The translations under genes were made by a program, and so were the position numbers. DNA of 64,000 nt, taken from positions 1-64,000 of the forward strand of contig CAJJCS010000002.1 in the NCBI GenBank assembly GCA_905182755.1. Reading direction: 5' to 3'. The DNA is from Aequorivita sp. HC6-5. Its GTDB lineage: Bacteria > Bacteroidota > Bacteroidia > Flavobacteriales > Flavobacteriaceae. Under the pieces are notes generated by a model, which did no database searches, was not told the DNA's origin, and worked only from the letters and a program-made list of their open reading frames with translations. Positions 6,392-28,206 of the stretch are shown piece by piece (within the stretch, counting starts at the first letter, position 1; each line of letters starts with the position of its first letter).

Positions 6392-7928
6392 TTATTTAAG
6401 TATTAAAATTTTGTTGTTTACAAACTTTTCTCCTCTGTTATTTCCAGCACTAATCATTACAATATAATTTCCTTTCTGTAATGAATTTAGATTAAGATTC
6501 GCTTGTTGCATGCCTTGCTCTTGCTCAATAACTTGCGTCCATACTAATCGCCCTAACATGTCATAAACCTCTGCTAATACTCCATCGATTAACCCTGGCA
6601 AATAATACATGACAGTTATATCTCCAGTAGATGGATTAGGAAATAGACTAAATTTAATTTGTTCAAAATTTTCTAAAGAAAGAGCATCTTCTACATTAAC
6701 TGTTCTTATTAGTTCTACTGCTGCATTACCGCTAGCATCTGATACATTATAAGTTACGGTGTAAACTCCTACAATAGCTGTATCTACTGGATTGTGTAAC
6801 AATACTAGAGGTAATATCTCCATCATAGGTATCTGTAGCGGTTGCGCCTGCATCTGTGTAGGTATCTCCCACCTCAAGGGTTACTGGATCATCTCCCAGC
6901 AAAGTAATCACAGGAAGGGTTGTATCTACTACATTAACTGTTCTTATTACTTCTACTGCTGCATTACCGCTAGCATCTGATACATTATAAGCTACTGTAT
7001 AAGTACCTACAACAGCTGTATCTACTGTAGATTGTGTAACAATACTAGAGGTAATATCTCCATCATAAGTATCTGTAGCGGTTGCGCCTGCATCTGTGTA
7101 GGTGTCTCCCACCTCAATGGTTACTGGATTATCTCCCAGCAAAGTAATCACAGGAAGGGTTGTATCTACAACATTGACTGTTCTTATTAGTTCTGCTGCT
7201 GCATTACCGCTAGCATCTGATACATTATAAGTAATTATATACGTTCCAACAGCATTGGTGTCTACAAGATTCACGGTCACTATACTACTAGTGATGTCTC
7301 CATCATAATTATCACTTGCAGTTGCACCAGCATCCGTATATACACTCCCTACCTCAACAGTTACACTATCATCACCTAATAAAGTGATTACAGGAGCAGT
7401 AGTGTCAACTATTGATGAAGTTAGAACTAAAGAAACATCATCAACTTTAATAGATGAGTTTACCGTTTTAAGACGAATTCTTGCCGTCACATTACCTGCT
7501 GCCGGAATATTATGTGTTCTTACAACTTGTTCCCAAGCACCTGTGGCTACTATGGTATAGTCTCCTTCAACAGGAAGTACGTTTCCAGAACCTGTAACAA
7601 AAAACCAAGGTGTAACAACCTGACCCGCTGTCCCTTTCACATAAAATGTAAATGTATAGTTGTCCATATCAACCGCAAATGCGGCAGCCGATTGCAAACG
7701 ATTGTTATTATTATCACAAGCATTTATTTGCCAACAACCACTACCATCAGCAGTATTAGTTTCAGATGAGTCGTATGCTCCTAATTCTGCTCCAGTGCAA
7801 CCACCAACTGCGTCACCTCTCCAATCATCCCCTGAGGTAAACGTTGGATTTAATAATAGATTCGTTTGAGCAAACAAACCAGTACTCAATAAAAATGCAC
7901 AAATAAGTAATGTGTAATTTTTTTTCAT
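6392..7928 (-). CDS. Secreted CBM-like protein with Ig-like repeats and T9SS sorting domain (one frameshift)
   Basis: The protein starts MKKNYTLLICAFLLSTGLFA, a signal peptide. Residues about 21-175 form a carbohydrate-binding-like jelly-roll unit (LLLNPTFTSGDDW ... IKVDDVSLVL). Then come four copies, each about 80 residues, of a bacterial surface Ig-like unit (PVITLLGD, YTDAGATA, YDGDITSSI, YNVSDASGNA). The C-terminus is a type IX sorting domain (FSLFPNPSTGDI ... GNYIVMISAG). The frame breaks near 6793, where TGTAGATTG of the sister repeats has become TGGATTG, a 2-base loss; reading through the break restores one gene of about 512 codons. The first 174 residues are almost identical to the protein at 16770. 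It is divergent from the GH10 gene and has its own HTCS-type promoter. The inferred job is binding polysaccharide at the cell surface. Confidence 0.85.
6710..7420 (-). repeat. 240-bp tandem coding repeats (Ig-like units)
   Basis: The phrase GTTGCGCCTG recurs at 6841 and 7081, and a variant occurs at 7321, giving a period of exactly 240 bases (80 codons). The two units nearest the gene end are almost identical; the one nearest the CBM is more diverged. This pattern suggests expansion by unequal crossing-over. Confidence 0.85.
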
Positions 7929-7953
7929 AATATTATTTTAGATTAACTAGCCT

Positions 7954-8014
7954 CAAAAATACCTGTAATGTAGATTCCTTGAAAGGTGATATGTTTTTTT
8001 AGTAGGGAGTAATG
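7954..8014 (-). promoter_or_regulatory. HTCS-type operator plus -7 box for the 7928 gene
   Basis: On the minus strand the half-site CATTACTCC (8014-8006) is followed by CATATCACC (7993-7985), 21 bases start to start. After a 23-base gap comes the -7 box TATTTTTG (7961-7954), 26 bases before the start codon. The same layout stands before the genes at 8124, 13587 and 16770. Binding by the HTCS at 23573 is inferred. Confidence 0.75.
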
Positions 8015-8037
8015 GTTTTACTTATTATTCTAAAAGT

Positions 8038-8098
8038 CATTTCACCTTATAAAAAAACCATAACGCCCTTTTCTTGCTTGCAATATGCTCTAATTTTG
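8038..8098 (+). promoter_or_regulatory. HTCS-type operator plus -7 box for the GH10-GH3-sulfatase operon
   Basis: The half-sites CATTTCACC (8038-8046) and CATAACGCC (8059-8067) lie 21 bases apart. The -7 box TAATTTTG (8091-8098) follows 23 bases after the second half-site. It is arranged back to back with the operator of the 7928 gene. Confidence 0.75.
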
Positions 8099-8123
8099 GA
8101 AAAAACAAAGTAAATATAATATT

Positions 8124-9182
8124 ATGAAAAAAATTTTACTAATTCATTTATTACTAATTTTTCCAATCATTTTATTTGCCCAAAGTAAAGAGATCACAGG
8201 AACTGTAGTTGTTGGTGCTACTCTGAATCATAATGAGCTAAACACTATAAAAGAAGAACTGTTTTTAAAAGATTTTAAGTACCTAACACCAGCCAATTCT
8301 GCAAAACAGACTAAAATTCATCCCACACCCAAAGTATGGAATTGGCAGCAAATTGATGACTTTATAAGTCTAGCTCAAAAACACGATTTACAAGTTCGCT
8401 TGCATGGTCCTATATCACCTCAAGCATCAAAATGGGCGAAAGAAGATTACAGAACTCCAAAAGAATTGGATCAAATCATGACTGAATTTGCAACCGCTTT
8501 TGCAATGAGATTTAATAATGAGCCAACTATAAAATGGATGGATGTTGTAAACGAAACCATACTTGCTAACGGAAAGTGGTTTGGCCCTAAGAAAGGAACT
8601 GATAAATGGGAAAACCCGTGGTTAAAAATGGGGTTAGATGAAAATGGTTATCCGCTTTATATTTTAAAAGCTTTTGAAATTGCAACAAAACATGCTACCA
8701 ATATTAAGCTGGTATATAATCAAAATGCAGGAATGCAAACCGAAATGTGGGAAAAGCTAAAAGAAACCATATTGTATATAAGGTCTAAAGGCTACCGTGT
8801 AGACGGTATTGGATGGCAAGCACATATAGGTCTTAGTCCAACAACAAAAGCATTAAAGGAGAATACGGACCTAGAATTAAAAAAATTATCAAAATTAATA
8901 GATTGGGCACACCAAAACGATTTAGAGTTTCATGTTACCGAACTCGACTATTTTATTGATGATTTAACTCAATTAAAAAAAGGTCTTAAAAATCAAGCAA
9001 CATTTTATCAAAAATTAGTTAAGCTTTTACAAGAGAAAACAAAATCAGGTGTTGTAACACTTAATCTTTGGGATATCGGTGAGCGCACTAAAAAAGGAAA
9101 AAAAGGTGCTTTTCAATCCATTTACGATTCAAAATTTCAGCCAACACCAAGTTATACTATCATTAAAAATATAAATAAATAA
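8124..9182 (+). CDS. Secreted GH10 family glycoside hydrolase (endo-xylanase-like)
   Basis: The product has 352 residues with a signal peptide (1-19, ending LFAQ) and a single GH10 TIM barrel. The general acid/base sits in WMDVVNET (Glu144) and the nucleophile in FHVTELDY (Glu273). Other family marks are RLHGP near residue 92 and the strand VDGIGWQAH near 226. GH10 enzymes cut internal beta-1,4-xylosidic bonds (some cut beta-1,3) with retention. There is no extra binding module and no sorting domain, so it probably acts in the periplasm. It is the first gene of an operon: GH3 begins one base after its stop codon, and the sulfatase follows. The four-promoter HTCS site lies directly upstream. 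The exact substrate is not fixed by the sequence. Confidence 0.88.
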   Translation: MKKILLIHLLLIFPIILFAQSKEITGTVVVGATLNHNELNTIKEELFLKDFKYLTPANSAKQTKIHPTPKVWNWQQIDDFISLAQKHDLQVRLHGPISPQASKWAKEDYRTPKELDQIMTEFATAFAMRFNNEPTIKWMDVVNETILANGKWFGPKKGTDKWENPWLKMGLDENGYPLYILKAFEIATKHATNIKLVYNQNAGMQTEMWEKLKETILYIRSKGYRVDGIGWQAHIGLSPTTKALKENTDLELKKLSKLIDWAHQNDLEFHVTELDYFIDDLTQLKKGLKNQATFYQKLVKLLQEKTKSGVVTLNLWDIGERTKKGKKGAFQSIYDSKFQPTPSYTIIKNINK

Positions 9183-9183
9183 T

Positions 9184-11536
9184 ATGTTTAAAAGAGTAAT
9201 TAAAAAAGTATTTTTTTTCAGTTTCATAGTAACGATGTATAGTTCTTATGCACAAAATTCAAGCCGGCTTAAGGAAACTCAAAGTCCTTTGTATTTAAAT
9301 CCATCACAACCTACTGAAAAAAGAGTAGCCGATTTAATGAGTAGGATGACTTTAGAAGATAAGGTATATCAAATGAACCAATTTGTTGGGTTGGATCATA
9401 TGAAAAAAGGAAACCCTAATGATGATAAAGAAAATAATGATGCACAGGGTTTTTATAAAACACTTTCTGTTAATGATGTCACTGCAATGTGTGAAGAGGG
9501 AAAAATAGGTTCTTTTTTACATGTTTTAACCGCTAAAGAAGCAAATTACTTGCAAGAATTGGCCTTAAAATCACCATTAAAAATACCGGTATTAATAGGG
9601 ATTGATGCCATACATGGAAATGCTTTGGTATCTGGCACAACAGTATATCCATCACCAATTGGATTAGCATCCACATGGAATGATGATTTCTTATATTCCA
9701 TAGGTAAACAAACTGCCAAAGAGATGAGAGCTACGGGAAGCCACTGGACTTTTACACCAAATATAGATATATTAAGAGATCCGCGCTGGGGTAGAGTTGG
9801 AGAAACATTAGGAGAAGATCCTTTTATGGTTGGTAATATGGGAGCTGCGATGATTACGTGGATTTCAGCAAGGAGATTTTACGGGAACTCAAAAAGTAAT
9901 TGCCTGTGTAAAACATCTTATTGGTGGTGGCGAATCAATCAATGGACTCAATGCAGCTCCTGCAGACATCTCTCTTAGGACGCTAAGAGAAATCCATCTC
10001 CCACCTTACAAAAAAGCCATTGATGCAGGGGTCTATTCGATTATGGCTGCACATAATGAGATAAACGGTATTCCATCTCATATGAGTAAATGGCTCATGA
10101 CAGATCTTTTAAGAAATCAATGGGGCTTCAAAGGATTTTATGTAAGTGATTGGTTAGATATCGAACGTATTAATACGTTGCATACTACTGCAAAGGATAT
10201 GAAAGAAGCTTCTTATTTATCTGTTGCTGCTGGTATGGACATGCATATGCATGGTCCATTTTTTACAGATGCGATTATTGAATCTGTAAAAGAAGGTACA
10301 CTTTCAATAAATCGTGTAAATGAGGCTTGCCATAAAATTTTAACAGCGAAGTTTAACTTAGGGTTATTTGAAAATCGATTTGTAGATTTAGAGAAAAAAG
10401 AGGAATTACTTTTTACAGAAGAACACAAAACAACTGCCTTAGAGTCTGCAAGAAAAGGAATCGTATTGCTTAAAAATAATGGGATATTACCTTTACAAAA
10501 AACCACTTCAAAAAAGAAAATATTTGTAACAGGACCCAATGCAAATAACCAATCTATTTTAGGAGATTGGCATGCTGCCCAACCTGATGAAAACGTAATT
10601 ACTATTTATGAAGGAATTAAAACTTTAGGAGAAACCAAAGGCTATGCTGTAACCTTTTTTGATTCAGGAGAAAACATTAGAAAAATACAAAGTTCTAAAA
10701 TTCAGGAAGCTGCAGAAAAAGCCAAAAATGCAGACTATGCAATTGTTGTTGTAGGAGATAATTCTATGCGCTACAAATGGAAAGATAAAACGGCTGGTGA
10801 AAATATGGGGCGTGCCAACTTAGATTTGTTTGGCAAACAATTAGAATTAGTTCAGGCTATTGAAAAAACAGGAACACCCGTAATCATTGTTTTGGTAAAC
10901 GGAAAGCCAATTTCTGAACCTTGGCTTCAAAAAAATATTCCTGCTATTTTAGAATCTTGGGAACCTGGAAATTTAGGAGGGCAAGCAGTGGCTGAAATTT
11001 TATTTGGCGAGGTAAATCCAAGTGGTAAATTACCTTTAACTGTGGCAAGAAGTGTTGGGCAGTTAAGAATGATATACAATCACAAACCCTCTGCTTATTT
11101 TCATAAATATGCCGATGAGAAAAACACGCCTTTATATCCTTTTGGATTTGGTTTAAGTTATACTAAATATAGTTATAGCACACCAAAACTATCAAGTACG
11201 ACATTCAAAGAGAACGAAGTTGTAACCGTTACTGTTGAAGTCACCAATAGTGGAAAAATTGATGGAGAGGAAATTGTTCAATTGTATATCCGAGATAAAG
11301 TTAGTAGTGCCACAAGACCCGTAAAAGAACTAAAAGGCTATCAACGTGTGGCCTTAAAAGCAGGCGAAACAAAAACAGTAAGTTTCACTATAGATGCTGA
11401 AATTTTAGCGTTTTATGACATCAATATGACCTATTGTGTAGAGCCTGGAGAGTTTATTATAATGACAGGTTCTTCTTCAAACGATAGAGATTTAAAATTA
11501 ACTATTTTAGAGGTCACTAATAGAATTGAATTATAA
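9184..11536 (+). CDS. GH3 family beta-glycosidase (one frameshift)
   Basis: This is a full-length GH3 of about 784 residues: signal peptide (ending YSSYAQ), N-terminal TIM barrel (GIDAIHGNA; NIDILRDPRWGR; nucleophile Asp in VSDWLDIER), the alpha/beta sandwich (GIVLLKNNGILPL; VVVGDNS) and the C-terminal FN3-like domain (GEEIVQLYIRD). The frame is broken once near 9859, where GATTACGTGGATTT should read GATTACTGGATTT. Removing the extra G joins the two halves, and CVKHLIGGGE then reads normally. GH3 exo-enzymes release single sugars, such as glucose or xylose, from oligosaccharide ends. It lies one base after the GH10 gene, which fits stepwise trimming of GH10 products in the periplasm. Confidence 0.88.
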
Positions 11537-11537
11537 A

Positions 11538-11651
11538 ATGAAACATTCTAAAATTGTTGTCATAACATGTCTCTTAGCTTTTTTAAGTTGTAAAACAACT
11601 AAGGAAAACAAGGCGTTGACAACTGCTAAAAAAAAACAAAATGAAAAATAA
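11538..11651 (+). CDS. Tiny putative lipoprotein (37 aa) overlapping the sulfatase start
   Basis: ATG at 11538 follows one base after the GH3 stop codon. It opens MKHSKIVVITCLLAFLSC, with a lipobox (AFLSC), then a short Lys/Thr-rich tail, and ends at 11651, eleven bases inside the sulfatase gene. It could be a real small lipoprotein, or the leftover N-terminus of another sulfatase lipoprotein whose body was lost by recombination. The sulfatase itself starts with a similar lipoprotein signal. Confidence 0.45.
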   Translation: MKHSKIVVITCLLAFLSCKTTKENKALTTAKKKQNEK

Positions 11652-13293
11652 TTTTATTAAAAGTTTTTGCCTGCTAACTCTTTTTTTCGGGGTTTTAAAT
11701 TCTTGTAATACAGCAAAGTCATCTACAACTGTTTCACAAAAAGAAGCACCAACAGTGAAGCCAAATATTATTTACATCATGGCAGATGATTTAACCACCC
11801 AGGCGATAAGTGCTTATGGCGGAATTTATAAAGATATTGCCCCAACACCCAATATTGATAAAGTAGCAAAAGAAGGGATGTTGTTTCAAGATGTTTTAGT
11901 TACCAATTCTATTTGTGGCCCAAGTAGAGCGGCGATATTAACAGGTAATTATAGCAACTTAAATGGCTACTATAAAAACGAAAGTGGCGGAAAGTTTAAC
12001 TCAGAGCAGTGGACATTTCCACAAGAATTTCAAAAACAAGGCTATAAAACCGGCTTATTTGGTAAATGGCATTTAGGGACAGAACCTGTTGGATTTGATA
12101 GTTTTAAATACCATAATTCTGCAGGGCAACAAGGCCATTACTGGAACCCTCTTTTTAATGAGAACGGAATCGATGTAAAAGAGAAAGGCTATGCCACTAA
12201 TTTAAGTACAGATTTCGCATTGTCTTGGCTCGATTCTACAAAAACTTCCAAGGAACCATTTTTAATGATTCTACAGTACAAGGCGCCCCACAGACCATGG
12301 GAACCAGACACAAAGTATGAAACATTATGGGATGACATAGAAATGCCTTATCCAGTAACATTTAATGATACCTACCAAGGGCGTGAATTGACAGCTGGAG
12401 ATACGGAGATGACGATGGAGTATTTTAGTCGTAGAGATATGAAATTAGAGCGTCCAAAGGATTTAAAGAAGGGGAGAGAAAGTATCAAATGGGATTTCTA
12501 TGGTGCTAAACCAGGTGAGATCGTTCAACCAGATGGTATGAGTAATGAAGAGGGAAAAAAATGGAGATATCAAAACTATATCAAAGATTATTTAGCCTGT
12601 GTTAAATCTGTTGACGATAATGTTGGACGTGTTTTAGACTATTTAAAAGAAAATAATCTTGAAGAAAACACCATTATTGTAGTAACGTCAGACCAAGGTT
12701 TTTATTTAGGTGATCACGGTTTTTTCGATAAACGATTTATTTATGAAGAATCTTTAAGAATGCCTTTTATGGTTAAATATCCTGGTAAAATAAAGGCAGG
12801 AAGTGTTAATGAAGATATTATTACAAATATAGATTTTGCGCCAACTTTATTAGAATTAGCTGGTATTTCAACAACTCAGAAAATGCAAGGCGCTAGTTTT
12901 GTTCCTGTTTTAGAGGGGAATACACCAAAAGATTGGCAAGACGGAATGTATTACCATTATTACGAGTTCCCGTTTTGGCATCATGTACAACCACATTATG
13001 GTATAAGAACGCAAAAATATACGCTAGCTCATTTTTATTACAATATTGATGTTTGGGAATTATATGATTTAGAAAAAGATCCACATCAAGTGAATAATAT
13101 TTATAATAACCCCAATTATGCTGATGTTGTAACTGAATTAAAGGTGAAGTTAAAAAACTTAATGATCAAATTTGAGGATAATAAAAGCTTGGTAGATTTT
13201 AGAAAAATAACCGACACAGATTTTGGTAGAATTGTAGATAATATTAATGATGAAGAATCTGTGCAACAGATTTTAACCAAGAAAAAAAATTAG
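11641..13293 (+). CDS. Sulfatase, family S1 (formylglycine-dependent), lipoprotein
   Basis: The product has 550 residues. The N-terminus is a lipoprotein signal (GVLNSC, Cys22), so anchoring in a membrane is likely. The metal-binding start PNIIYIMADDL is followed by the sulfatase signature SICGPSRAAILTG, whose Cys in C-x-P-x-R is the residue oxidised to formylglycine. GKWHLG and VTSDQGFYLGDHG are further family marks. It hydrolyses sulfate esters on a glycan or an oligosaccharide. The Cys-type site requires a maturase encoded elsewhere; none is seen in this window. It is the last gene of the GH10-GH3 operon, which points to a sulfated substrate. The S1 subfamily cannot be assigned by eye. Confidence 0.9.
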   Translation: MKNNFIKSFCLLTLFFGVLNSCNTAKSSTTVSQKEAPTVKPNIIYIMADDLTTQAISAYGGIYKDIAPTPNIDKVAKEGMLFQDVLVTNSICGPSRAAILTGNYSNLNGYYKNESGGKFNSEQWTFPQEFQKQGYKTGLFGKWHLGTEPVGFDSFKYHNSAGQQGHYWNPLFNENGIDVKEKGYATNLSTDFALSWLDSTKTSKEPFLMILQYKAPHRPWEPDTKYETLWDDIEMPYPVTFNDTYQGRELTAGDTEMTMEYFSRRDMKLERPKDLKKGRESIKWDFYGAKPGEIVQPDGMSNEEGKKWRYQNYIKDYLACVKSVDDNVGRVLDYLKENNLEENTIIVVTSDQGFYLGDHGFFDKRFIYEESLRMPFMVKYPGKIKAGSVNEDIITNIDFAPTLLELAGISTTQKMQGASFVPVLEGNTPKDWQDGMYYHYYEFPFWHHVQPHYGIRTQKYTLAHFYYNIDVWELYDLEKDPHQVNNIYNNPNYADVVTELKVKLKNLMIKFEDNKSLVDFRKITDTDFGRIVDNINDEESVQQILTKKKN

Positions 13294-13320
13294 AGTACAT
13301 AATCCTTATAAACTAAAATC

Positions 13321-13491
13321 ATTCCTATTGGAGAGGGGAACCTTGAAAAGGGAATGATTAACCTTTTAGTGAAGTTAGGGTATAAATGACCTTTTGGCAT
13401 TTTAGGGCATCTAAAGAGTGAAGACCTAACGCTCACTTTAAAAAAGAACCTAAAAGGTTTCCAAGCACTTTTTGTAGTTGAAAAAAAGTAA
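13321..13491 (+). pseudogene. C-terminal remnant of a sugar isomerase/epimerase-like TIM-barrel gene
   Basis: Reading from 13321 gives IPIGEGNLEKGMINLL and then PFGILGHLKSEDLTLTLKKN up to a stop at 13489-13491. This matches the usual end of xylose-isomerase-like sugar phosphate isomerases/epimerases (IGEG ... GYKGP.GILGH ... VLKRNLEGL). An in-frame TGA at 13387-13389 interrupts it, and there is no start codon or N-terminal part. A second remnant of the same family lies at 16345-16670. Both sit directly in front of an HTCS-type operator. Confidence 0.65.
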
Positions 13492-13494
13492 AAC

Positions 13495-13555
13495 CATTAC
13501 CCCCTATTAAAAAAACATTTCACCCCTAATTAGCGCAGATATAAAATTAATATTG
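13495..13555 (+). promoter_or_regulatory. HTCS-type operator plus -7 box for the 13587 gene
   Basis: The half-sites CATTACCCC (13495-13503) and CATTTCACC (13516-13524) lie 21 bases apart. After 23 bases comes TAATATTG (13548-13555), a -7 box with one mismatch to TANNTTTG. It begins 4 bases after the stop of the isomerase remnant. Confidence 0.7.
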
Positions 13556-13586
13556 ATAAACCAATTAATCAAATATTTAAACGATT

Positions 13587-16217
13587 ATGAAAAATATTAT
13601 TTTACTTTTTTTAATGCTCTTGTCTTTACAGACCTTTGGGCAAGACGTGGTTTACAACTTTAATACAACTACAGAGGGTTTTACCTCGGAGGCTATGGCT
13701 GGATTAACTGCTACTGATGGAGTTCTTGTAAATGCTACTTGGTCTGGTAGTTTTCAGTTTGTTAGAACCCCTGCAGGATTAGCGAAAACAGAAGCTAATT
13801 ACAAGAAAATTAGAGTTGTAGTAGAAAACTCTACAGACATAACAGTATTTCAAGTATTAAATTTTGATTCAGGTTCTACTTCTGCTGGAATAGCAGATAA
13901 AACAGATGTTACTATTGCAGCTGTCGCTCTTAATTCTGGGTTTACAACTTACGACATTGATTTTCCTGCGAACTCTTCAAATAGTGGTACTATTGATAGA
14001 CTTGGTTTTAGAGCTTTAGGGTAACCCAGATGGAAATATTGAAATTGCACAAATTGTACTGATTGAAACTGGAAATTGGGTTACTAACAACAATTTTGAA
14101 ACCTCTACAGACTGGACAGCTTCGGGTGCAGATGTTACTGCTGGTTTTACAGCTACAGATCCACAAGAAGGAACTCAATCTGGCACCTTAACTTTTACAG
14201 CAGATCAAGTTGGAAATAAATTTTTACAAAGTGCTACTACAGATTTTGGAGAAACTGTTAGTCCTACAGACATAAATACTACACTTTGGGTAAAATCATC
14301 TACACCAGGTGCTCTAGTCTCATTAGTATACAGTTTGAAAAATGCTACAGGTGCATATCTAGGTCAAATATCTACAGGTTCTCATACTATTTCTTCTGCT
14401 GATACTTGGGAGTTAGCATCTTTTAATAAATCAAATCTTACAAATACATTTAACCAAGTTTTATTAAAAATTAAAGTAGTAGGTGGTCTAGATGGTACTG
14501 TTATATCTTTTGATGATGTGCAACCCAGTGCAATTTTAGTGGCTACTGACAATAGTTGGACAGGTGGAAAAGATACAGAATGGACAGACATAGCTAACTG
14601 GACAAACGGAGTTGCTCCAACAGCAACAAAAGATTCAAACGTACAAGTAAGTGCTAACAACCCTGTTATTAGCGCAACAACTGTTGCAGCTGTAAAAAAA
14701 TTAGATGTAGGTGCTAGTGCTGCTTTAACAATTGCTAGTGGTGGGTCTTTAACAGTTTCTGGAGACTTTACCAATGATGGCACAGTTAGCTTAAACTCTA
14801 CTGCAGATGATTTCTCTTCTTTAATTGTAGAAGGAACAGCCACTGGAGATATTACATACAACAGATATGTTAATGCATATAACGACGGCCTTGGTGGTGG
14901 TTGGGATTTTGTAGGAGCCCCTGCCGATATGACCATTGAAGATTTTATAACGGCAAATGGAGCCAACATACAAGTACTTGGTGATGATTATGCATTTGCC
15001 CAGTATGATAATGCAACTGGACAGTATGCTAGATACGCAACAGACTTACAAACAGGAAGCTTTACACCTGCACAAGGGTATGCAATGGCAATGTCACCAG
15101 AGGATCTGCCTCCACCTCCATCAGGTGGTACAGCTGGAACTACAGTAGCCTTTACTGGTGCTATGGAAACTACATCTCAAAGCATCAATATTGTTAACAA
15201 CCATGCAAACGGCGCCGGAGGTAGAAGATGGAATTTGGTATCAAACCCTTTCCCTTCTTTCATCAATGGAAATGCTGCTGCAGGAGCTACCAACTTCCTA
15301 GACACAAATATTACTGTAATGGACGATACCTTCACAGGTGTTTATGGCTGGAATGGGTCTGATTATGACATTTATAACCTGCTTGATGGTTCTTTTTCAA
15401 TAGCTCCTGGTCAAGGATTCTGGGTAGCTGCATTGAGCACATCAGATGCCGCATCTTGATTTTACAGCAGCTATGCGTACCACTACAGGAACTGGAGATT
15501 TTATTTCAAGGACCTCAGACTACTTACTTACAATGTAGCATTAAAGCTTTACCATGGTGAGAGAGAACAGGCAAAGACTAATTTATATTTTAGAGATGGA
15601 CTTTCTCTAGGTCTTGATCCTGGATATGACGCAGGAGCCTATAACCAATCAACAAAATTAAGCACAAGATTGCCACAGGGAAGCCAAGAAACAGCTTTTG
15701 CTAAAAACGCTATGGGTATGGATGCTATGCAAAACACCAGAGTGCCACTAGAGATACGTCAAAATGAAGGACAGGCCTTTACTATTAGTATTGCAGATAT
15801 GGATCTTCCAGAAGATATCTACGTATATCTAGAAGATACCTTAAACGGCACCCTTACCTCTTTAAAAGATGGAGACTTTGAGCTAACAGCTCAAAGTAAT
15901 CTTAGCGGTGTAGATAGATTCTTTATTGTCTTTAAAGTCAATCAGCGTGCTATCTAGTGGAGACACCCTTGGTATAAACGCCTTAAATGTATACAAAGCA
16001 AATACAGACAGCTTTGTTACCATAGCTGGTATCACTCCAGATCTAGGACAGCTAGATGTTACCCTTTATAACATACTAGGAGACAGTGCGTGAAAAAGCG
16101 TTAAACCCAGCAACTGCAACCCAGACTATCTCTACAGAAGGCTTGGCAAGTGGCTTGTATATCATACAATTAAAATCAGGGAGCCAAGTATTCACTAAAA
16201 AAATAGTGGTACTCTAG
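13587..16217 (+). CDS. Secreted CBM-like surface protein with long C-terminal T9SS module (frameshifted)
   Basis: Signal peptide 1-18 (ending FGQ). Residues about 19-150 look like a beta-sandwich binding domain (YNFNTTTEGF ... IDRLGFRALG). A CBM4/9-like domain follows (NNNFETSTDW ... ISFDDVQPS). The C-terminal 480 or so residues are a beta-rich module (SLTVSGDFTNDGTV, YNRYVNAYNDG, GRRWNLVSNPFPS, DPGYDAGAYNQS) closing with a type IX sorting domain (GLASGLYIIQLKSG). Frame breaks lie near 14022, 15450, 15505, 15938 and 16080; correcting them by comparison with 19978-21427 gives one continuous protein. The C-terminal 1.45 kb is almost identical to the end of the GH5 gene at 17980. No catalytic domain was recognised. 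The likely role is binding glycan at the cell surface, under its own HTCS-type promoter. Confidence 0.75.
14751..16200 (+). repeat. 1.45-kb near-identical cassette, copy 1
   Basis: From AACAGTTTCTGGAGA at 14751 to the end of the sorting domain, this segment matches 19978-21427 with very few substitutions, mostly indels. It carries the same C-terminal module fused to two unrelated upstream domains. Confidence 0.85.
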
Positions 16218-16233
16218 TATCTGCGAAACACTA

Positions 16234-16310
16234 AACAAGCAGCATTTAAAACATGCTGCCTGTTTAAGATAAAAAAAGGCGAAACATATATATATGTTTT
16301 GCCTTTTTGT
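16234..16310 (+). terminator. Two hairpins ending the 13587 transcript
   Basis: An imperfect hairpin (AGCAGCAT / ATGCTGC, about 16238-16260) is followed by a longer one (AAAAGGCGAAACATAT / ATATGTTTTGCCTTTT, 16273-16307) with flanking A- and T-runs. They lie 20-95 bases past the stop codon at 16217. Confidence 0.8.
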
Positions 16311-16344
16311 TTATGTTTGGGACTCAAATTAATTAAAAATATGA

Positions 16345-16670
16345 TTTTTTCCTATGATACAGTTGAGAATCCCTTTAGAACTGAAAATCTCATTCCGTGG
16401 TCTATCGTTGCTTTTGATAAATTAGAACGCTCCCCGTCACAACGGGTAGCTATGATTAAAAAGCTTGGTTTTAGGCAATATGCTTTTGGAGCTAGAAAAA
16501 GCATGTTGAAACCATGGTATCTTAGCTAAATACAGCGAGAATCGAAGGCGTCAAAATTAGTGCTGTTAGGCTATAAGGGGCCTTTTGGTGTTTTAGGGCA
16601 CGTTAAGAATGAAGACGTAGCACTCACTTAAAACAGCATCTAAAGGCTTGAATCACTTTTAGTGATAATA
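16345..16670 (+). pseudogene. Remnant of a sugar isomerase/epimerase-like gene with internal deletion
   Basis: The first part reads NPFRTENLIPWSIVAFDKLE and RSPSQRVAMIKKLGFRQYAF, the usual start of xylose-isomerase-like TIM-barrel proteins (IPW.IV.FD ... R..ML..LGF). After about 30 codons of broken sequence, the end of the same family appears: LGYKGPFGVLGHVKNEDVAL (about 16561-16632). The roughly 200 residues in between are missing, so this is a decayed gene with an internal deletion. It parallels the C-terminal remnant at 13321. Confidence 0.65.
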
Positions 16671-16682
16671 ATCCAAAAAAAC

Positions 16683-16743
16683 CATTTCTCCTTTACAAGT
16701 AACCATATCACCCTATATTAAAAAAGCATTATGAGTAAATTTA
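16683..16743 (+). promoter_or_regulatory. HTCS-type operator plus -7 box for the 16770 operon
   Basis: The half-sites CATTTCTCC (16683-16691) and CATATCACC (16704-16712) lie 21 bases apart. After 23 bases comes TAAATTTA (16736-16743), which differs from TANNTTTG only in the last base. The start codon follows 26 bases later. Confidence 0.7.
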
Positions 16744-16769: not shown

Positions 16770-17285
16770 ATGAAAAAAAATTACACATTATTGGCATGTT
16801 CATTCCTAATGAGCATAGGTTTGTTTGGTCAGACCAATCTGCTATTAAATCCAACGTTTACCTCAGGGGATGATTGGAGAGGTGACGCAGTTGGTGGTTG
16901 CACTGGAGCAGAATTAGGGGCATACGACTCATCAGAAACTAATACCGCTGATGGTAGTGGTTGTTGGCAAATAAATGCTTGTGATAATAATAACAATCGT
17001 TTGCAATCGGCTGCTGCATTTGCGGTTGAAATGGATAATTATACATTTACATTTTATGTAAAAGGGACAGCAGGTCAGGTTGTTACACCTTGGTTTTTTG
17101 TTACAGATTCTGGAAACGTACTTCCTGTTGAAGGAGACTATACCATAGTAGCCACAGATGTTTGGGAAGAAGTTGTAAGAACACATGATATTCCAGCAGC
17201 AGCTAATGTGACGGCACGAATTCGTCTTAAAACGGTAGATTCATCTATTAAAGTTGATGATGTTTCTTTAGTTCTAACGTCATCA
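16770..17285 (+). repeat. 0.5-kb CBM cassette shared with 7410-7928 (inverted copy)
   Basis: The DNA from the start codon to the end of the CBM-like domain is almost identical to the reverse complement of 7410-7928. After that point the two genes have unrelated C-terminal parts. Confidence 0.85.
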
Positions 17286-17537
17286 CTTGGCATAGACGAT
17301 TTTTCAAGTATTGAAAAAATGAATTTATTCCCGAATCCAGTTTCAGATATTTTATCAATAAAGTCACTTTCGGGAATTAAGAAACTTGCAGTGTTTAATT
17401 TGTTAGGACAAAAAGTGATGGTTAAAGAAAACACAAATAGTCTGAATGTAAATAAATTAAAACCAGGAGCATATATCTTAAAAATCGTTGACGAGAATGA
17501 TTCTGTTTCAACGAAAAAATTCATAAAATCCAATTAA
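16770..17537 (+). CDS. Secreted CBM-like protein with T9SS sorting domain
   Basis: The product has 255 residues: signal peptide (MKKNYTLLACSFLMSIGLFG), one carbohydrate-binding-like domain (LLLNPTFTSGDDW ... IKVDDVSLVL, residues about 21-172), then directly a type IX sorting domain (MNLFPNPVSDILSI ... GAYILKIVDEND). Its first 170 residues are nearly the same as those of the protein at 6392-7928, but the Ig-like repeats are absent. It is the first gene after an HTCS-type promoter; the small gene at 17566 and the GH5 genes follow on the same strand. The inferred role is a short surface glycan-binding protein. Confidence 0.85.
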   Translation: MKKNYTLLACSFLMSIGLFGQTNLLLNPTFTSGDDWRGDAVGGCTGAELGAYDSSETNTADGSGCWQINACDNNNNRLQSAAAFAVEMDNYTFTFYVKGTAGQVVTPWFFVTDSGNVLPVEGDYTIVATDVWEEVVRTHDIPAAANVTARIRLKTVDSSIKVDDVSLVLTSSLGIDDFSSIEKMNLFPNPVSDILSIKSLSGIKKLAVFNLLGQKVMVKENTNSLNVNKLKPGAYILKIVDENDSVSTKKFIKSN

Positions 17538-17936: not shown

Positions 17937-17962
17937 AAAGCCAATGCATTTGCATTGGCTTT
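17937..17962 (+). terminator. Perfect 12-bp hairpin between the small gene and GH5
   Basis: AAAGCCAATGCA pairs with TGCATTGGCTTT, with a minimal loop and no long T-run after it. It could be a weak terminator, an attenuator, or an mRNA-stabilising stem that sets expression of the downstream GH5 gene. Confidence 0.55.
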
Positions 17963-17969
17963 ATTCAAA

Positions 17970-19731
17970 AAATGATTTTATGTTGAAAAATAAAGTATTA
18001 TTACTGTTAGTAGTTTATCTGGCACCTTTTGTCTTATTTGCTCAAACAGCTCCATATGATATGGTCTCTCAAATGGGAAGAGGTATAAACCTTGGAAACG
18101 TTCTTAGTGCTCCTATAGAAGGAAACTGGGCCCCTGCTGCTGAGGAACAATATTTTATCGATGTTGCTGCCGCTGGTTTTACCAATGTTAGAATTCCAAT
18201 TGACTTTTTTGGGACTCGAACTACAGGCGATACTTCTGGTTATTCAAGTACTGCTGGAACTGCAGGAAATTATACCGGAACATCAGCAGATTATGTTGTT
18301 AGCTCAGTATACCTTGATAGAGTTCAACAGGTAGTTAATTGGTCTCTAAATCAAGGTCTTGTAACCATAATTGATCTTCATGGCTCAACTTTAAATTCTG
18401 AGTTTATCTACACATTTGATTCTGGAGAATCAGAATATACACACCCAAGTTCAGCAAAAAGAGCTGCCGATAATGATAAATTTAGAGCTATTTGGACTCA
18501 GATAGCAGATCGGTTTAAAAACCATCCTGATAATTTATTATTTGAGGTTATTAACGAGCCCTATTTTCATATGAGCAAGACAGATATGGATACACTCAAT
18601 ACTGATATTTTAGCTATTATAAGAGCTTCTGGAGGAAGTAACGGAACTAGAAATGTGATTATCACAGGAGGAACAGTGACTTCACATGAAGCGCCTTTGC
18701 AAATTGAACCTTCAATTATTTCTGGGGATAGTTATTTAATAGCAACCTTTCATTATTACCAACCTTTTAATTTTACAAGTTCTAGTGCAGACTCTAGGGA
18801 TAATGAATCTTGGGGTACAGTTCAAGATAAAGAACTATTAACAACAAGATTTAATGAGGTTTATCAGTGGGCTTTAACAAACCAAATACCTGTTTTTTTA
18901 GGAGAATTTAGTGCAGATAATACTGGTGGATATAATTACAGTACAGGAGATTTAAATACCATTTCAGATAATACTACTGGATTTGCTGATGGAGGTCCAG
19001 ATAATGCCTCAAGAGTAGAGTATCATAGATTTATTGTAGAACAAGCCATAAATAAAGGGTTTTCGTTTGCAGCTTGGGATTCTGGGCCAAAGTCTAACAA
19101 AACAATTCATAAGAGGACAGACAGTCCTACAACTTTAAATTATAATATTAATGACTTTTCAGTGACAAGTTATAATCCTAAAGTTACAACTATTAGTACA
19201 GTTGTAGATAACTCTACTTGGGTGGAAGATGTAAAGGATGCTTTACTAGATACAAGTGCAAACTGTAATAATTTTATCCAACTTATTATAAATCCAAATT
19301 TTGAGTGTGGTTTTAATAGTAATTGGGACATTTTTGTAGCAGGAGCATCATCAGCATCTGCAACATTCTCTGACGGAACCACAGATTCAAGATCAGGCAA
19401 TGTAAGTGGGAAAATTGATGTAACCGCATCAGCTAATTATAACAGTGTACTTTTAAAAAATCAAGAATACACAAACGATTTGACAGGAAAAACGCTGACC
19501 GTTAAAGCTTATGTAAAAGCATCTACTGTAGCCCAAAGCTTCAAATTTAGAATTAAGGCTGTTGTAGATGGCTCCAATGTTTTCTGGGTATCGCCTTCAA
19601 TAAATTTATCAACAGACTACCCTACATCACCGTTTGAATTTGAATATGTAGTGGCTGCAAATACCACATCCATTGAGGTACAGACAATGTTGGGTAATGA
19701 GGTCGGTATTTATTACTTTGATGATTTCGAA
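17970..19731 (+). repeat. 1.76-kb near-identical GH5-CBM repeat, copy A
   Basis: It matches 21426-23183 almost base for base (a few substitutions and one indel), starting about ten bases before the start codon and ending at the last strand of the CBM-like domain. Identity this high across two adjacent genes means a recent tandem duplication or ongoing gene conversion. Confidence 0.9.
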
Positions 19732-21442
19732 GTTTCTGGAAACTCTTGTTCTAGTACAACTATTTGGGATGGTGCCGCTTGGAGCAATGGTACTCCAGAT
19801 GCAAATTCTTACGCTATAATGAGTGGCACATACAGTACTGGAACTAATGGTGATATTACTGCTTGTGTAATGCAAGTTGATGCAGATGTTAGTATAGACA
19901 GTACTACAGACACTTCTGTTGGTGAAATTTTAGTTACTACAGGAAATACGCTAACCATAGACAAGACATCTTCCTTAACAGTTTCTGGAGATTTTACCAA
20001 CAATGGCACAGTTAGCTTAAACTCTACTGCAGATGATTTCTCTTCTTTAATTGTAGAAGGAACAGCCACTGGAGATATTACATACAACAGATATGTTAAT
20101 GCATATAACGACGGCCTTGGTGGTGGTTGGGATTTTGTAGGAGCCCCTGCCGATATGACCATTGAAGATTTTATAACGGCAAATGGAGCCAACATACAAG
20201 TACTTGGTGATGATTATGCATTTGCCCAGTATGATAATGCAACTGGACAGTATGCTAGATACGCAACAGACTTACAAACAGGAAGCTTTACACCTGCACA
20301 AGGGTATGCAATGGCAATGTCACCAGAGGATCTGCCTCCACCTCCATCAGGTGGTACAGCTGGAACTACAGTAGCCTTTACTGGTGCTATGGAAACTACA
20401 TCTCAAAGCATCAATATTGTTAACAACCATGCAAACGGCGCCGGAGGTAGAAGATGGAATTTGGTATCAAACCCTTTCCCTTCTTTCATCAATGGAAATG
20501 CTGCTGCAGGAGCTACCAACTTCCTAGACACAAATATTACTGTAATGGACGATACCTTCACAGGTGTTTATGGCTGGAATGGGTCTGATTATGACATTTA
20601 TAACCTGCTTGATGGTTCTTTTTCAATAGCTCCTGGTCAAGGATTCTGGGTAGCTGCATTGAGCACATCAGATGCCGATCTTGATTTTACAGCAGCTATG
20701 CGTACCACTACAGGAACTGGAGATTTTATTCAAGGACCACAACTACTTACTTACAATGTAGCATTAAAGCTTTACCATGGTGAGAGAGAACAGGCAAAGA
20801 CTAATTTATATTTTAGAGATGGACTTTCTCTAGGTCTTGATCCTGGATATGACGCAGGAGCCTATAACCAATCAACAAAATTAAGCACAAGATTGCCACA
20901 GGGAAGCCAAGAAACAGCTTTTGCTAAAAACGCTATGGGTATGGATGCTATGCAAAACACCAGAGTGCCACTAGAGATACGTCAAAATGAAGGACAGGCA
21001 TTCACTATTAGTATTGCAGATATGGATCTTCCAGAAGATATCTACGTATATCTAGAAGATACCTTAAACGGTACCCTTACCTCTTTAAAAGATGGAGACT
21101 TTGAGCTAACAGCTCAAAGTAATCTTAGCGGTGTAGACAGATTCTTTATTGTCTTTAAAGACAATAGCGTACTATCTAGTGGAGACACCCTTGGTATAAA
21201 CGCACTAAATGTATACAAAGCAAATACAGACAGCTTTGTTACCATAGCCGGCATTAACTCCAGAGTTAGGGCAGTTAAACGCTACCATATTTAATATACT
21301 AGGAATGACAGTGCGTGAAAAAGCGTTAAACCCAGCAACTGCAACCCAGACTATCTCTACCCAAGGCCTAGTAAGTGGCTTGTATATCATACAATTAAAA
21401 TCAGGGAACCAAGTATTTATTAAAAAAATGATCTTATGTTGA
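17980..21442 (+). CDS. Secreted GH5 glycoside hydrolase with CBM-like domain and long T9SS module (copy A)
   Basis: The start at 17980 (MLKNKVLLLL) is preferred over an upstream in-frame ATG at 17944 because it begins a proper signal peptide and matches copy B. The GH5 domain covers residues about 22-430: RGINLGNVL at the start, acid/base in VINEP (Glu193), HYY near 259, nucleophile in FLGEF (Glu309). A CBM4/9-like domain follows (NPNFECGFNSNW ... YYFDDFEVS), then the same 480-residue beta-rich module as in the 13587 gene with a terminal sorting domain (GLVSGLYIIQLKSG). The frame breaks near 21255-21285, and the real stop lies at 21440-21442. GH5 enzymes hydrolyse beta-linked glycans such as glucans, mannans or xylans; the subfamily is uncertain. 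Position 311, next to the nucleophile motif, is Ser here and Gly in copy B. Confidence 0.85.
19978..21427 (+). repeat. 1.45-kb near-identical cassette, copy 2
   Basis: This is the second copy of 14751-16200, here fused downstream of a GH5-CBM unit instead of a CBM-only unit. Confidence 0.85.
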
Positions 21443-23183
21443 AAAATAAAGTTTTATTACTGTTAGTAGTTTATCTGGCACCTTTTGTCTTATTTGCTCA
21501 AACAGCTCCATATGATATGGTCTCTCAAATGGGAAGAGGTATAAACCTTGGAAACGTTCTTAGTGCTCCTATAGAAGGAAACTGGGCCCCTGCTGCTGAG
21601 GAACAATATTTTATCGATGTTGCTGCCGCTGGTTTTACCAATGTTAGAATTCCAATTGACTTTTTTGGGACTCGAACTACAGGCGATACTTCTGGTTATT
21701 CAAGTACTGCTGGAACTGCAGGAAATTATACCGGAACATCAGCAGATTATGTTGTTAGCTCAGTATACCTTGATAGAGTTCAACAGGTAGTTAATTGGTC
21801 TCTAAATCAAGGTCTTGTAACCATAATTGATCTTCACGGATCAACTTTAAATTCTGAGTTTATCTTCACATTTGATGCTGGAGAATCAGAATATACACAC
21901 CCAACTTCAGCAAAAAGAGCTGCCGATAATGATAAATTTAGAGCTATTTGGGCTCAGTAGCAGATCGGTTTAAAAACCATTCTGATAATTTATTATTTGA
22001 AGTTATTAACGAGCCCTATTTTCATATGAGCAAGACAGATATGGATACACTCAATACTGATATTTTAGCTATTATAAGAGCTTCTGGAGGAAGTAATGGA
22101 ACTAGAAATGTGATTATCACAGGAGGAACAGAAACTTCACATGAAGCGCCTTTGCAAATTGAACCTTCAATTATTTCTGGGGATAGTTATTTAATAGCAA
22201 CCTTTCATTATTACCAACCTTTTAATTTTACAAGTTCTAGTGCAGACTCTAGGGATAATGAATCTTGGGGTACAGCTCAAGATAAAGGACTATTAACAAC
22301 AAGATTTAATGAGGTTTATCAGTGGGCTTTAACAAACCAAATACCTGTTTTTTTAGGAGAATTTGGTGCAGATAATACTGGTGGATACAATTACAGTACA
22401 GGAGATTTAAATACCATTTCAGATAATACTACTGGATTTGCTGATGGAGGTCCAGATAATGCCTCAAGAGTAGAGTATCATAGATTTATTGTAGAACAAG
22501 CCATAAATAAAGGGTTTTCGTTTGCAGCTTGGGATTCTGGGCCAAAGTCTAACAAAACAATTCATAAGAGGACGGACAGTCCTACAACTTTAAATTATAA
22601 TATTAATGACTTTTCAGTGACAAGTTATAATCCTAAAGTTACAACTATTAGTACAGTTGTAGATAACTCTACTTGGGTGGAAGATGTAAAGGATGCTTTA
22701 CTAGATACAAGTGCAAACTGTAATAATTTTATCCAACTTATTATAAATCCAAATTTTGAGTGTGGTTTTAATAGTAATTGGGACATTTTTGTAGCAGGAT
22801 CATCATCAGCATCTGCAACATTCTCTGACGGAACCACAGATTCAAGATCAGGCAATGTAAGTGGGAAAATTGATGTAACCGCATCAGCTAATTATAACAG
22901 TGTACTTTTAAAAAATCAAGAATACACAAACGATTTGACAGGAAAAACGCTGACCGTTAAAGCTTATGTAAAAGCATCTACTGTAGCCCAAAGCTTCAAA
23001 TTTAGAATTAAGGCTGTTGTAGATGGCTCCAATGTTTTCTGGGTATCGCCTTCAATAAATTTATCAACAGACTACCCTACATCACCGTTTGAATTTGAAT
23101 ATGTAGTGGCTGCAAATACCACATCCATTGAGGTACAGACAATGTTGGGTAATGAGGTTGGTATTTATTACTTTGATGATTTA
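21426..23183 (+). repeat. 1.76-kb near-identical GH5-CBM repeat, copy B
   Basis: This is the second copy of 17970-19731. After 23183 the two copies diverge completely, which marks the joint where C-terminal parts were exchanged. Confidence 0.9.
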
Positions 23184-23486
23184 GAATTTTCTATTGATAA
23201 CACATTATCTTCGGATATTATTGATTTAAATAATGAAGTTGTATTATTTCCTAATCCAAGCCAGGATTTTGTAAACATAAAGTTAGTATCTCTAAACAAA
23301 AAGATAAAACGCGTCAGGATAATTGATGTTAATGGAAGAGTTATTACAGAACATAATCCTAAGCATACCAATAGTTTAAAATTAAATACTAATACTTTGG
23401 AAAATGGGATCTATTTAATACAAATTACAACAAGTGATAACAAGGTTTTAAGGTATAAACGGATTGTTGTAGCTAGGTTATATTAG
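21436..23486 (+). CDS. Secreted GH5 glycoside hydrolase with CBM-like and short T9SS domain (copy B, one frameshift)
   Basis: The start ATG at 21436 overlaps the stop of copy A by seven bases (ATGTTGA). Signal peptide, GH5 domain and CBM-like domain are nearly identical to copy A (VINEP acid/base; nucleophile in FLGEFGAD). The C-terminus differs: after the CBM there is a short standard sorting domain (VVLFPNPSQDFVNIKL ... GIYLIQITTSDNK) instead of the 480-residue module. The frame breaks near 21955, where GGCTCAGTAGC lacks one A compared with GGACTCAGATAGC of copy A; this is probably a sequencing error. It is likely cotranscribed with copy A. The two may share a substrate while being placed on the surface by different C-terminal parts. 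Confidence 0.85.
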
Positions 23487-27861: not shown

Positions 27862-27891
27862 TATTACCCCCATACCAATAACCATTACCCC
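27862..27891 (+). promoter_or_regulatory. Orphan HTCS-type operator pair
   Basis: TATTACCCC (27862-27870; first base differs from the consensus) and CATTACCCC (27883-27891) are 21 bases apart, as in the four promoters of the locus. It lies 20 bases after the HTCS stop codon. No -7 box stands 23 bases downstream; a broken coding remnant begins there instead. Confidence 0.5.
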
Positions 27892-27897
27892 CTTATA

Positions 27898-28118
27898 ACT
27901 ATACAGATTGGTATTTACCTTCAAAAGATGAACTAGACATGATGTATGTAAATTTACACTTGCAAGGGCTTGGCGGTTTTGCTAATAGTTCCTACTGGAG
28001 TTCTACGGAGCTCGATGGCAATGACGCGTGGGCTCAGTTTTTCAACTTTGGTTATCAGAGCTACAACATAAGTGCTCCACAAGCAGTGTGCGTGCTGTTC
28101 GGGCTTTTTAATTATTTA
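27898..28118 (+). pseudogene. C-terminal fragment of a DUF1566/FISUMP-like domain gene
   Basis: Without any start, the frame reads YTDWYLPSKDELDMMYVNL, then GGFANSSYWSSTELD, typical of the DUF1566 / Fibrobacter-succinogenes-paralogous domain found in secreted Bacteroidota proteins. The end shows a frameshift: the family-typical SVRAVRAF and a stop at 28116-28118 are in another frame. Only the last 70 or so residues of the domain remain, joined directly to an orphan HTCS-type operator. Confidence 0.6.
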
Positions 28119-28206
28119 TCAATTTAGCGAAGCGGTCTCACGAGCACCTTTCAAGAAAATAAGTAAGGGTGCGTAATTTAATAAGTGCCGCGTAAGCGGC
28201 CGAGTA

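Follow-up and report, generated by a model that had tools for sequence, protein, structure and literature searches.

Phased CATWWCNCC direct repeats as predicted operators of a hybrid two-component system in a glycan locus of Aequorivita sp. HC6-5

Results and discussion

The first 64,000 nucleotides of contig CAJJCS010000002.1 of Aequorivita sp. HC6-5 (Flavobacteriaceae; assembly GCA_905182755.1), hereafter the window, contain the sulfated-sugar locus of a marine bacterium, in which a gene for a hybrid two-component system (HTCS) regulator lies with genes for glycoside hydrolases (GH), a sulfatase and secreted proteins (Table 1). Four of its promoters carry two CATWWCNCC half-sites with a period of 21 bp, followed after a further 23 bp by a TANNTTTG-like -7 box. 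Sequence comparison and analogy with known regulators indicate that these four sites are very probably the operators of the locus's own HTCS (23573-27841), on which two AraC-type domains would bind next to the -35 region. The predicted regulon includes, in trans, the genes of a second locus on another contig (C4).

Operator design and chance expectation

This design had been described in an earlier, sequence-only reading of the window, and every letter of it was confirmed. CATWWCNCC is fitted exactly by all eight half-sites and the 21-bp period is found in all four pairs, while the -7 boxes differ from TANNTTTG at no position (TATTTTTG and TAATTTTG) or at one (TAATATTG and TAAATTTA). Like HTCS operators, the sites thus present two direct half-sites about 21 bp apart 5' of glycan genes. 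The regulator itself unites in one protein the parts expected of an HTCS, namely a sensor propeller (Reg_prop, Y_Y_Y), HisKA, HATPase, a receiver and an AraC-type helix-turn-helix (HTH).

When up to two mismatches were allowed, the two-half-site pattern matched five times in the window, compared with a mean of 0.44 and a largest value of 3 in 100 shuffles; the fifth match (27862) stands directly after the HTCS gene. In the genome as a whole (1.89 Mb, 77.5% complete) the exact pattern was found five times and its reversed control not at all. A genome-wide scan, put forward in the sequence-only reading as its check, was run with the full 61-base design (up to three mismatches) and likewise returned five matches, with none for the reversed control: the four of the window and one on contig C4 (G000:C4:266578-266638(-)), at the head of a sulfatase-GH3-SusC/SusD gene run.

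Not all of these sites are independent. The segment 16651-17285 is 87.6% identical to 8041-7413, including operator and gene start, which places operators 1 and 4 in a duplicated segment. Over 118 bp, the C4 promoter shares 93% identity with 7931-8048. From this similarity sites 1, 4 and C4 are of common ancestry, so that the window alone yields two or three independent lines of evidence rather than four; for this reason the analysis was extended to relatives.

Conservation at loci of orthologous regulators

A scan of species genomes gave 76 loci, 17 of which (L065-L081) encode an HTCS 51-92% identical to that of the window; 16 were usable, as the 3.4-kb fragment L077 was excluded from all counts. 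Upstream regions were scored with a matrix built solely from the eight half-sites of the window, at a pair threshold of 12. The 21-bp pair was present in 22 of the 138 upstream regions of the 16 orthologue loci, and in 18/110 regions at the 12 loci whose HTCS is only 51-63% identical (mean of 0.31 and maximum of 2 in 100 shuffles). In controls it was found in 1/355 regions at loci of other HTCSs (L082-L140), in 2/390 at 60 other Flavobacteriaceae HTCS loci and in 2/371 at 40 arbitrary loci, that is, in 5 of 1116 regions when pooled. The pair is therefore kept at orthologous HTCS loci and rare at loci of other HTCSs, as would be expected of an HTCS operator. Within the genus, the exact pattern occurs in one of 11 genomes, the same one that encodes an HTCS of this clade. 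Together with precedent from Bacteroides (PMC3878776, as far as consulted), these counts uphold the proposal that the sites are the predicted operator of the local HTCS.

Including those of the window and C4, 25 sites stand before nine protein clusters, and the genes behind them include SusC, sulfatases, an MFS transporter and GntR regulators. Six fresh loci were intended as a further sample, two of which were dropped as identical to loci already used (L278 to L074 and L279 to L080); the pair was found in two of the remaining four, both times with a box free of mismatches at 23 bp.

In L067 a homologue of site 27862 (two mismatches) stands 5' of a gene for an MFS sugar transporter, and TACATTTG follows 23 bp on. 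In the window no -7 box was found 23 bp past the relict operator 27862, and homology to relatives stops at about 27899, followed by a coding fragment (27893-28120) that by eye reads like a FISUMP-type protein. Given the position of the L067 site, the promoter of this relict seems to have been severed in a rearrangement.

As a family-wide scanner the bare pattern was rejected: 118 of 397 genomes match, mostly (by eye) through one recurring form, CATAACNCCNGTNTGNCCNACCATATCNCC, which is taken to be a conserved coding stretch. Three matches of other forms were inspected (L060, L061 and L062), and those of genomes G336 and G316 were rejected as HTCS promoters since annotation shows a C25 peptidase behind them (L060 and L061).

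Spacing, orientation and register to the -7 box

At a score of at least 14, 20 regions in 13 orthologue loci contained the 21-bp pair. A box with at most one mismatch starts exactly 23 bp on in 16 of these 20 sites, each other offset being seen once at most; with the window and C4 included, this holds for 21 of 25 sites. The half-sites are in direct orientation and point toward the gene (20 regions at a lag of 21), compared with no more than two regions at any lag for either inverted arrangement and one at lag 21 for the reversed one.

The spacing had been said never to vary, which is true of the window (4/4) and not of relatives. Of the spacings other than 21 in the matrix scans, many are by eye frame shadows that these sites cast themselves. 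With spacing left free between 15 and 30 bp, the best pair was spaced by 21 bp in 17 of 21 regions, by 22 in one and by 23 in three.

The spacer letters vary among orthologue sites. An A-tract is conserved at the spacer end: positions 15-20 of the unit each carry A in 15 to 20 of 20 sites, which were hand-picked, mostly one per promoter. Both half-sites share a conserved CATNNNNCC, and the sequence that separates them is A/T-rich. Bacteroidota promoters have a -33 element (TTTG or TTG) some 19 bp 5' of the -7 box. Immediately past the operator, TTTG was found in one of 25 sites and TTG in four. With the -7 box at -12 to -5, the proximal half-site ends at about -36, next to a -35 region that is poor in this element, as would be expected of an activator abutting that region.

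A letter-blind search for direct repeats 5' of -7 boxes was also made. Lag 21 led at HTCS loci (25/302 regions at 60 other Flavobacteriaceae HTCS loci and 26/252 at 49 distant HTCS loci) but at 40 control loci too (13/282), with only 5/103 regions at orthologue loci and the box distance unresolved, and a generalisation from geometry only was rejected. As HTCS loci and controls were not clearly told apart in this way, the 23-bp register is claimed for the clade of the window HTCS and that of the C4 HTCS (four sites), not for HTCSs generally.

The C4 locus and the second HTCS of the genome

The C4 locus encodes SusC (in two frames), SusD, sulfatases, a GH3 (84.7% identical in DNA to that of the window) and an HTCS of its own, which is 31% identical to the window HTCS and belongs to a different clade. 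Orthologues of the C4-type HTCS were identified in four of 198 other family genomes (E up to 1e-220). In four of the five loci of this clade, the C4 locus counted, the half-site is GACCWWWW, again as a direct repeat of 21 bp and followed at a constant distance by a -7-like box (one or two mismatches), while the window-type pair occurs in one of 42 upstream regions, namely the C4 promoter. The last HTH also differs between the clades (FRTCFKKHF in one, FSTLFKKTF in the other); we take this segment to be the recognition helix.

The SusC pieces of C4 are most similar to proteins of L069 and L075 (for the larger piece 52.7% identity and 780 bits, and 50.6% and 755 bits, respectively, the best match in the other clade reaching 315 bits); for SusD the corresponding scores are 435 (L069), 419 (L075) and 103 bits. 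In L069 and L075 a SusC gene with a CAT-type operator lies beside a window-type HTCS orthologue. The C4 GH3 piece and three further sulfatases are also best matched on the window-type side, and the sulfatase behind the GACC-type operator groups with the C4-type clade. C4 therefore looks like a mosaic, whose SusC/SusD part would have come from the window HTCS and, judged by its operator type, would also respond to it. C4 is predicted to be a second target locus, under trans control of the window HTCS, because the box that goes with the genome's other HTCS is of a different, GACC type; from strand and gene order, the C4 run of genes is assumed to be transcribed as a unit.

A divergent partner of the C4 operator (C4:266662, + strand; L028:18663-18692) has decayed. 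Its second half-site reads AATTTCTCC and no -7 box was seen by eye 23 bp past it; its counterpart in the window, site 2, is intact.

We regard as evenly balanced the wider proposal of a common frame for Flavobacteriaceae HTCS promoters, with tandem half-sites spaced by about 21 bp and an unchanging distance to the -7 box, in which nothing but the letters of the half-sites depends on the clade. In that proposal the two HTCSs of this genome would use the same frame with different letters, the SusC/SusD genes beside one HTCS would be wired to the other, and the loci of the two contigs would form one split glycan system.

Contrary observations and alternative explanations

Several observations weigh against assigning the operators to the window HTCS. 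No pair at threshold 12 was found in the upstream regions of three of the 16 orthologue loci (L068, L071 and L076; L071 has a site with one mismatch 427 bp before an open reading frame (ORF)), nor in L277 and L280 of the fresh sample. One orthologous promoter, before a GntR gene, accounts for six of the 25 sites. Site 5 is at most degenerate in L065, L066 and L068, and the minus-strand genes of L066 that resemble C4 genes lack such an operator in their upstream regions. Spacing is imperfectly kept, as four of the 21 best pairs are truly at 22 (L073) or 23 bp (L079 and L081, which share one promoter, and before L075:3260); in the three 23-bp pairs the box lies at 21 bp, so that the distance from upstream half-site to box is unchanged.

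In L060 (10127-10177) and L061 (9975-10025), three phased half-sites in 21-bp steps (CATTTTGAC or CATTTCGAC, then CATTTCACC and CATTACACC) precede the C25-peptidase gene, which we call porU-like; in L060 it is divergent from an FGE-sulfatase-domain gene, by our assignment gldJ-like. No HTCS was found among the few genes scanned around these triple half-sites, and a similar box can, to judge from them, serve something else. Finally, the gene directly behind the C4 operator is best matched in the other clade (L159, 237 bits; L066, 119 bits), and the next gene, a sulfatase, is strongly matched on both sides (L066, 897 bits; three loci of the other clade, 771-798 bits). These mixed C4 matches bear on the idea of a split glycan system, and the spacing exceptions leave the operator assignment unchanged.

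The boxes might instead bind another regulator, either a stand-alone AraC-type protein or the C4 HTCS, with the window HTCS a mere neighbour. Two other AraC-type DNA-binding domains are encoded in the genome (E up to 1e-5; C4:268455, 41% identical, and C4:45570, 28%), and a window-type operator does sit beside the C4 HTCS, before a gene that best matches a locus of the C4-type clade. Yet the orthologues of that HTCS go with GACCWWWW half-sites (4/5 loci) and, apart from the C4 promoter itself (1/42 regions), not with the window-type pair, which accompanies window-type HTCS orthologues across genera; the differing last HTH (FRTCFKKHF and FSTLFKKTF) also argues against this explanation, which we consider unlikely.

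It is less probable still that the shared design was mostly inherited through recent duplication of one promoter and not kept by selection. Such an origin would suit sites 1 and 4, in their 87.6% identical segment, and the 93% identical C4 promoter, but sites 2 and 3 precede other genes, and at orthologue loci the pair and its 23-bp distance recur before genes from several unrelated protein clusters, with varying spacer letters. Moreover, two sites that lost their promoter context (27862 and C4:266662) have drifted. A DNA-curvature or alternative sigma element without a specific activator, for which the conserved A-tract between the half-sites could speak, is highly improbable given that both half-sites keep CATNNNNCC while the stretch between them is A/T-rich, that the half-site changes with the HTCS clade and that the downstream box is of the sigma-A type TAnnTTTG (PMC9723704, consulted text).

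Comparison with known systems

As described by Ravcheev et al. 2013 (PMC3878776, of which the consulted text is cited throughout), the predicted HTCS motifs of Bacteroides are direct repeats whose sites are on average 21 bp apart. As in the Bacteroides thetaiotaomicron motifs, the operator is a two-site direct repeat over two helical turns, for which a dimer on one face has been proposed there. The B. thetaiotaomicron sites likewise lie before operons of polysaccharide utilization loci, related HTCSs have similar motifs, and some regulons reach distant operons. The present sites differ in belonging to Flavobacteriaceae and in their CATWWCNCC half-site, a distinction made without view of the logos of PMC3878776, and the 23 bp to the -7 box measured here are not mentioned in its consulted text. 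HTCS direct repeats with a mean of 21 bp are thus already known from Bacteroides; what the present case adds is the half-site in Flavobacteriaceae, its spacing from the -7 box and a regulon predicted to be split. In the open-access literature, subscription papers and preprints lying outside the scope, nothing recognisable was found on Flavobacteriaceae HTCS operators or their distance to the -7 box.

SusR-type operators are also direct repeats before glycan operons (PMC3878776), but with 67 or 77 bp between their sites, and the DNA-binding domain of SusR is described there as unlike other known ones. A SusR operator was rejected here, the distance being 21 bp and the locus regulator an HTCS.

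The AraC/XylS regulator MtlR of Pseudomonas, at its promoter PmtlE, is described in the consulted text of PMC4514859 as recognising blocks at -72 to -58 and -50 to -36, 5' of the -35 region, where binding as a dimer was proposed. Both systems have two direct-repeat blocks about two turns apart, a proximal end at -36 and a poly-A tract within the site. The MtlR blocks are 22 bp apart, with the A-tract right after the first repeat, whereas here an HTCS carries the DNA-binding domain, the repeats have a period of 21 bp and the -7 box is flavobacterial. The fit with the MtlR/PmtlE positions suggests the same arrangement, in which the proximal domain would abut the -35 region.

Proposed mechanism and predicted regulon

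The HTCS would sense a glycan fragment in the periplasm, upon which its receiver would be phosphorylated. By sequence and precedent, two AraC-type domains would then bind head to tail on the CATWWCNCC half-sites, on one face of the DNA. A flavobacterial TAnnTTTG box of sigma-A type has been placed at -12 to -5 (consulted text of PMC9723704). If the -7 box takes that position, the half-sites would span roughly -65 to -57 and -44 to -36. The promoter-proximal domain would abut the -35 region, where the TTTG element is mostly missing, and the HTCS may stand in for this element and recruit the housekeeping polymerase, as AraC/XylS-type activators do. A solved structure (12aw), a 279-residue chain named hybrid two-component system protein, has a DNA-binding domain like that of the window HTCS and could serve as the basis of a binding model.

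The regulon is predicted to consist of the four window promoters and, in trans, the C4 sulfatase, GH3, SusC and SusD run. The four promoters had been taken as the whole regulon; they stand as predicted members of a list that was incomplete, given the predicted C4 genes and the relict at 27862. They had also been said to cover every enzyme gene of the locus, a statement left unsupported for the two GH5 genes, which have no operator of their own and lie behind the 12-bp inverted repeat 17937-17962; control of the other enzyme genes is still predicted.

Other features of the locus

Table 1. Coordinates of the predicted regulatory sites and genes of the glycan locus in the window
Feature	Position	Strand	Description
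-7 box TATTTTTG	7954..7961	-	23 bp past operator 1
Operator 1	7985..8014	-	CATTACTCC-N12-CATATCACC; 5' of surface protein gene 6747-7928(-)
Operator 2	8038..8067	+	CATTTCACC-N12-CATAACGCC; 5' of GH10/GH3/sulfatase genes
-7 box TAATTTTG	8091..8098	+	23 bp past operator 2
Operator 3	13495..13524	+	CATTACCCC-N12-CATTTCACC; 5' of gene 13587
-7 box TAATATTG, one mismatch	13548..13555	+	box of operator 3
Operator 4	16683..16712	+	CATTTCTCC-N12-CATATCACC; 5' of gene 16770
-7 box TAAATTTA, one mismatch	16736..16743	+	box of operator 4
Relict operator 5, one mismatch	27862..27891	+	directly 3' of HTCS gene
HTCS, 1422 aa	23573..27841	+	Reg_prop repeats, Y_Y_Y, HisKA, HATPase, receiver, AraC-type HTH
Secreted immunoglobulin-like surface protein	6747..7928	-	predicted target of operator 1
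GH10	8124..9182	+	first gene 3' of operator 2
GH3, two open frames (9184-9978 and 10043-11536)	9184..11536	+	
Sulfatase	11641..13293	+	
Secreted protein fragment, no Pfam match	13587..14024	+	predicted target of operator 3
Secreted protein with type IX secretion system tail	16770..17537	+	predicted target of operator 4
Perfect 12-bp inverted repeat, terminator-like	17937..17962	+	just 5' of first GH5 start (17980); read directly
GH5, first copy, fused to repeated C-terminal segment	17944..21294	+	
GH5, second copy, two frames (second from 21948)	21436..23486	+	

The region of operator 3 has counterparts of similar sequence among the promoter regions of L065 and L066. Stretches of about 100 bases at 13355-13480 and 16560-16665, just 5' of operators 3 and 4, are alike by eye, with matches in L067. 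Rfam gave no matches in 6000-29000 of the window, a sigma-70 type promoter scan was uninformative (63 sites compared with 67.7 in shuffles), and the terminator scan did not list the inverted repeat 17937-17962.

The N-terminal part of the protein encoded at 16770-17537 is nearly identical to that of 6747-7928. The two GH5 copies (17960-19737 and 21416-23192) are 98.65% identical over 1778 bp and are, on this similarity, a recent tandem duplication. SusC and SusD were absent among the 27 of 51 window ORFs of at least 120 amino acids that were scanned, and no other ORF is long enough for SusC. Genes split over two frames occur in the window (GH3, 9184-11536) and in the C4 locus (GH3, L028:12950-15310; SusC, L028:8387-11549), and may reflect assembly error or decay. 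A 1.4-kb segment of secreted-protein coding has 10 near full-length copies in the genome (75-100% identity), of which those in the window (14740-16210, 19972-21429 and 40688-42065) are preceded by different N-terminal parts, as if the segment had been swapped by recombination. The region at 36.3-38.5 kb, with a YadA head repeat protein (37410-38501) and adjoining internally repeated stretches, is a repetitive surface protein region.

Significance

For HTCS glycan loci of marine Flavobacteriaceae, targets are as a rule guessed only from which genes lie nearby. An operator that can be read from sequence, in a frame that is nearly fixed, would allow the target promoters of an HTCS to be listed, those on other contigs included. 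It would also allow regulators to be paired with transport genes where a locus is without SusC/SusD of its own, as appears to be the case here.

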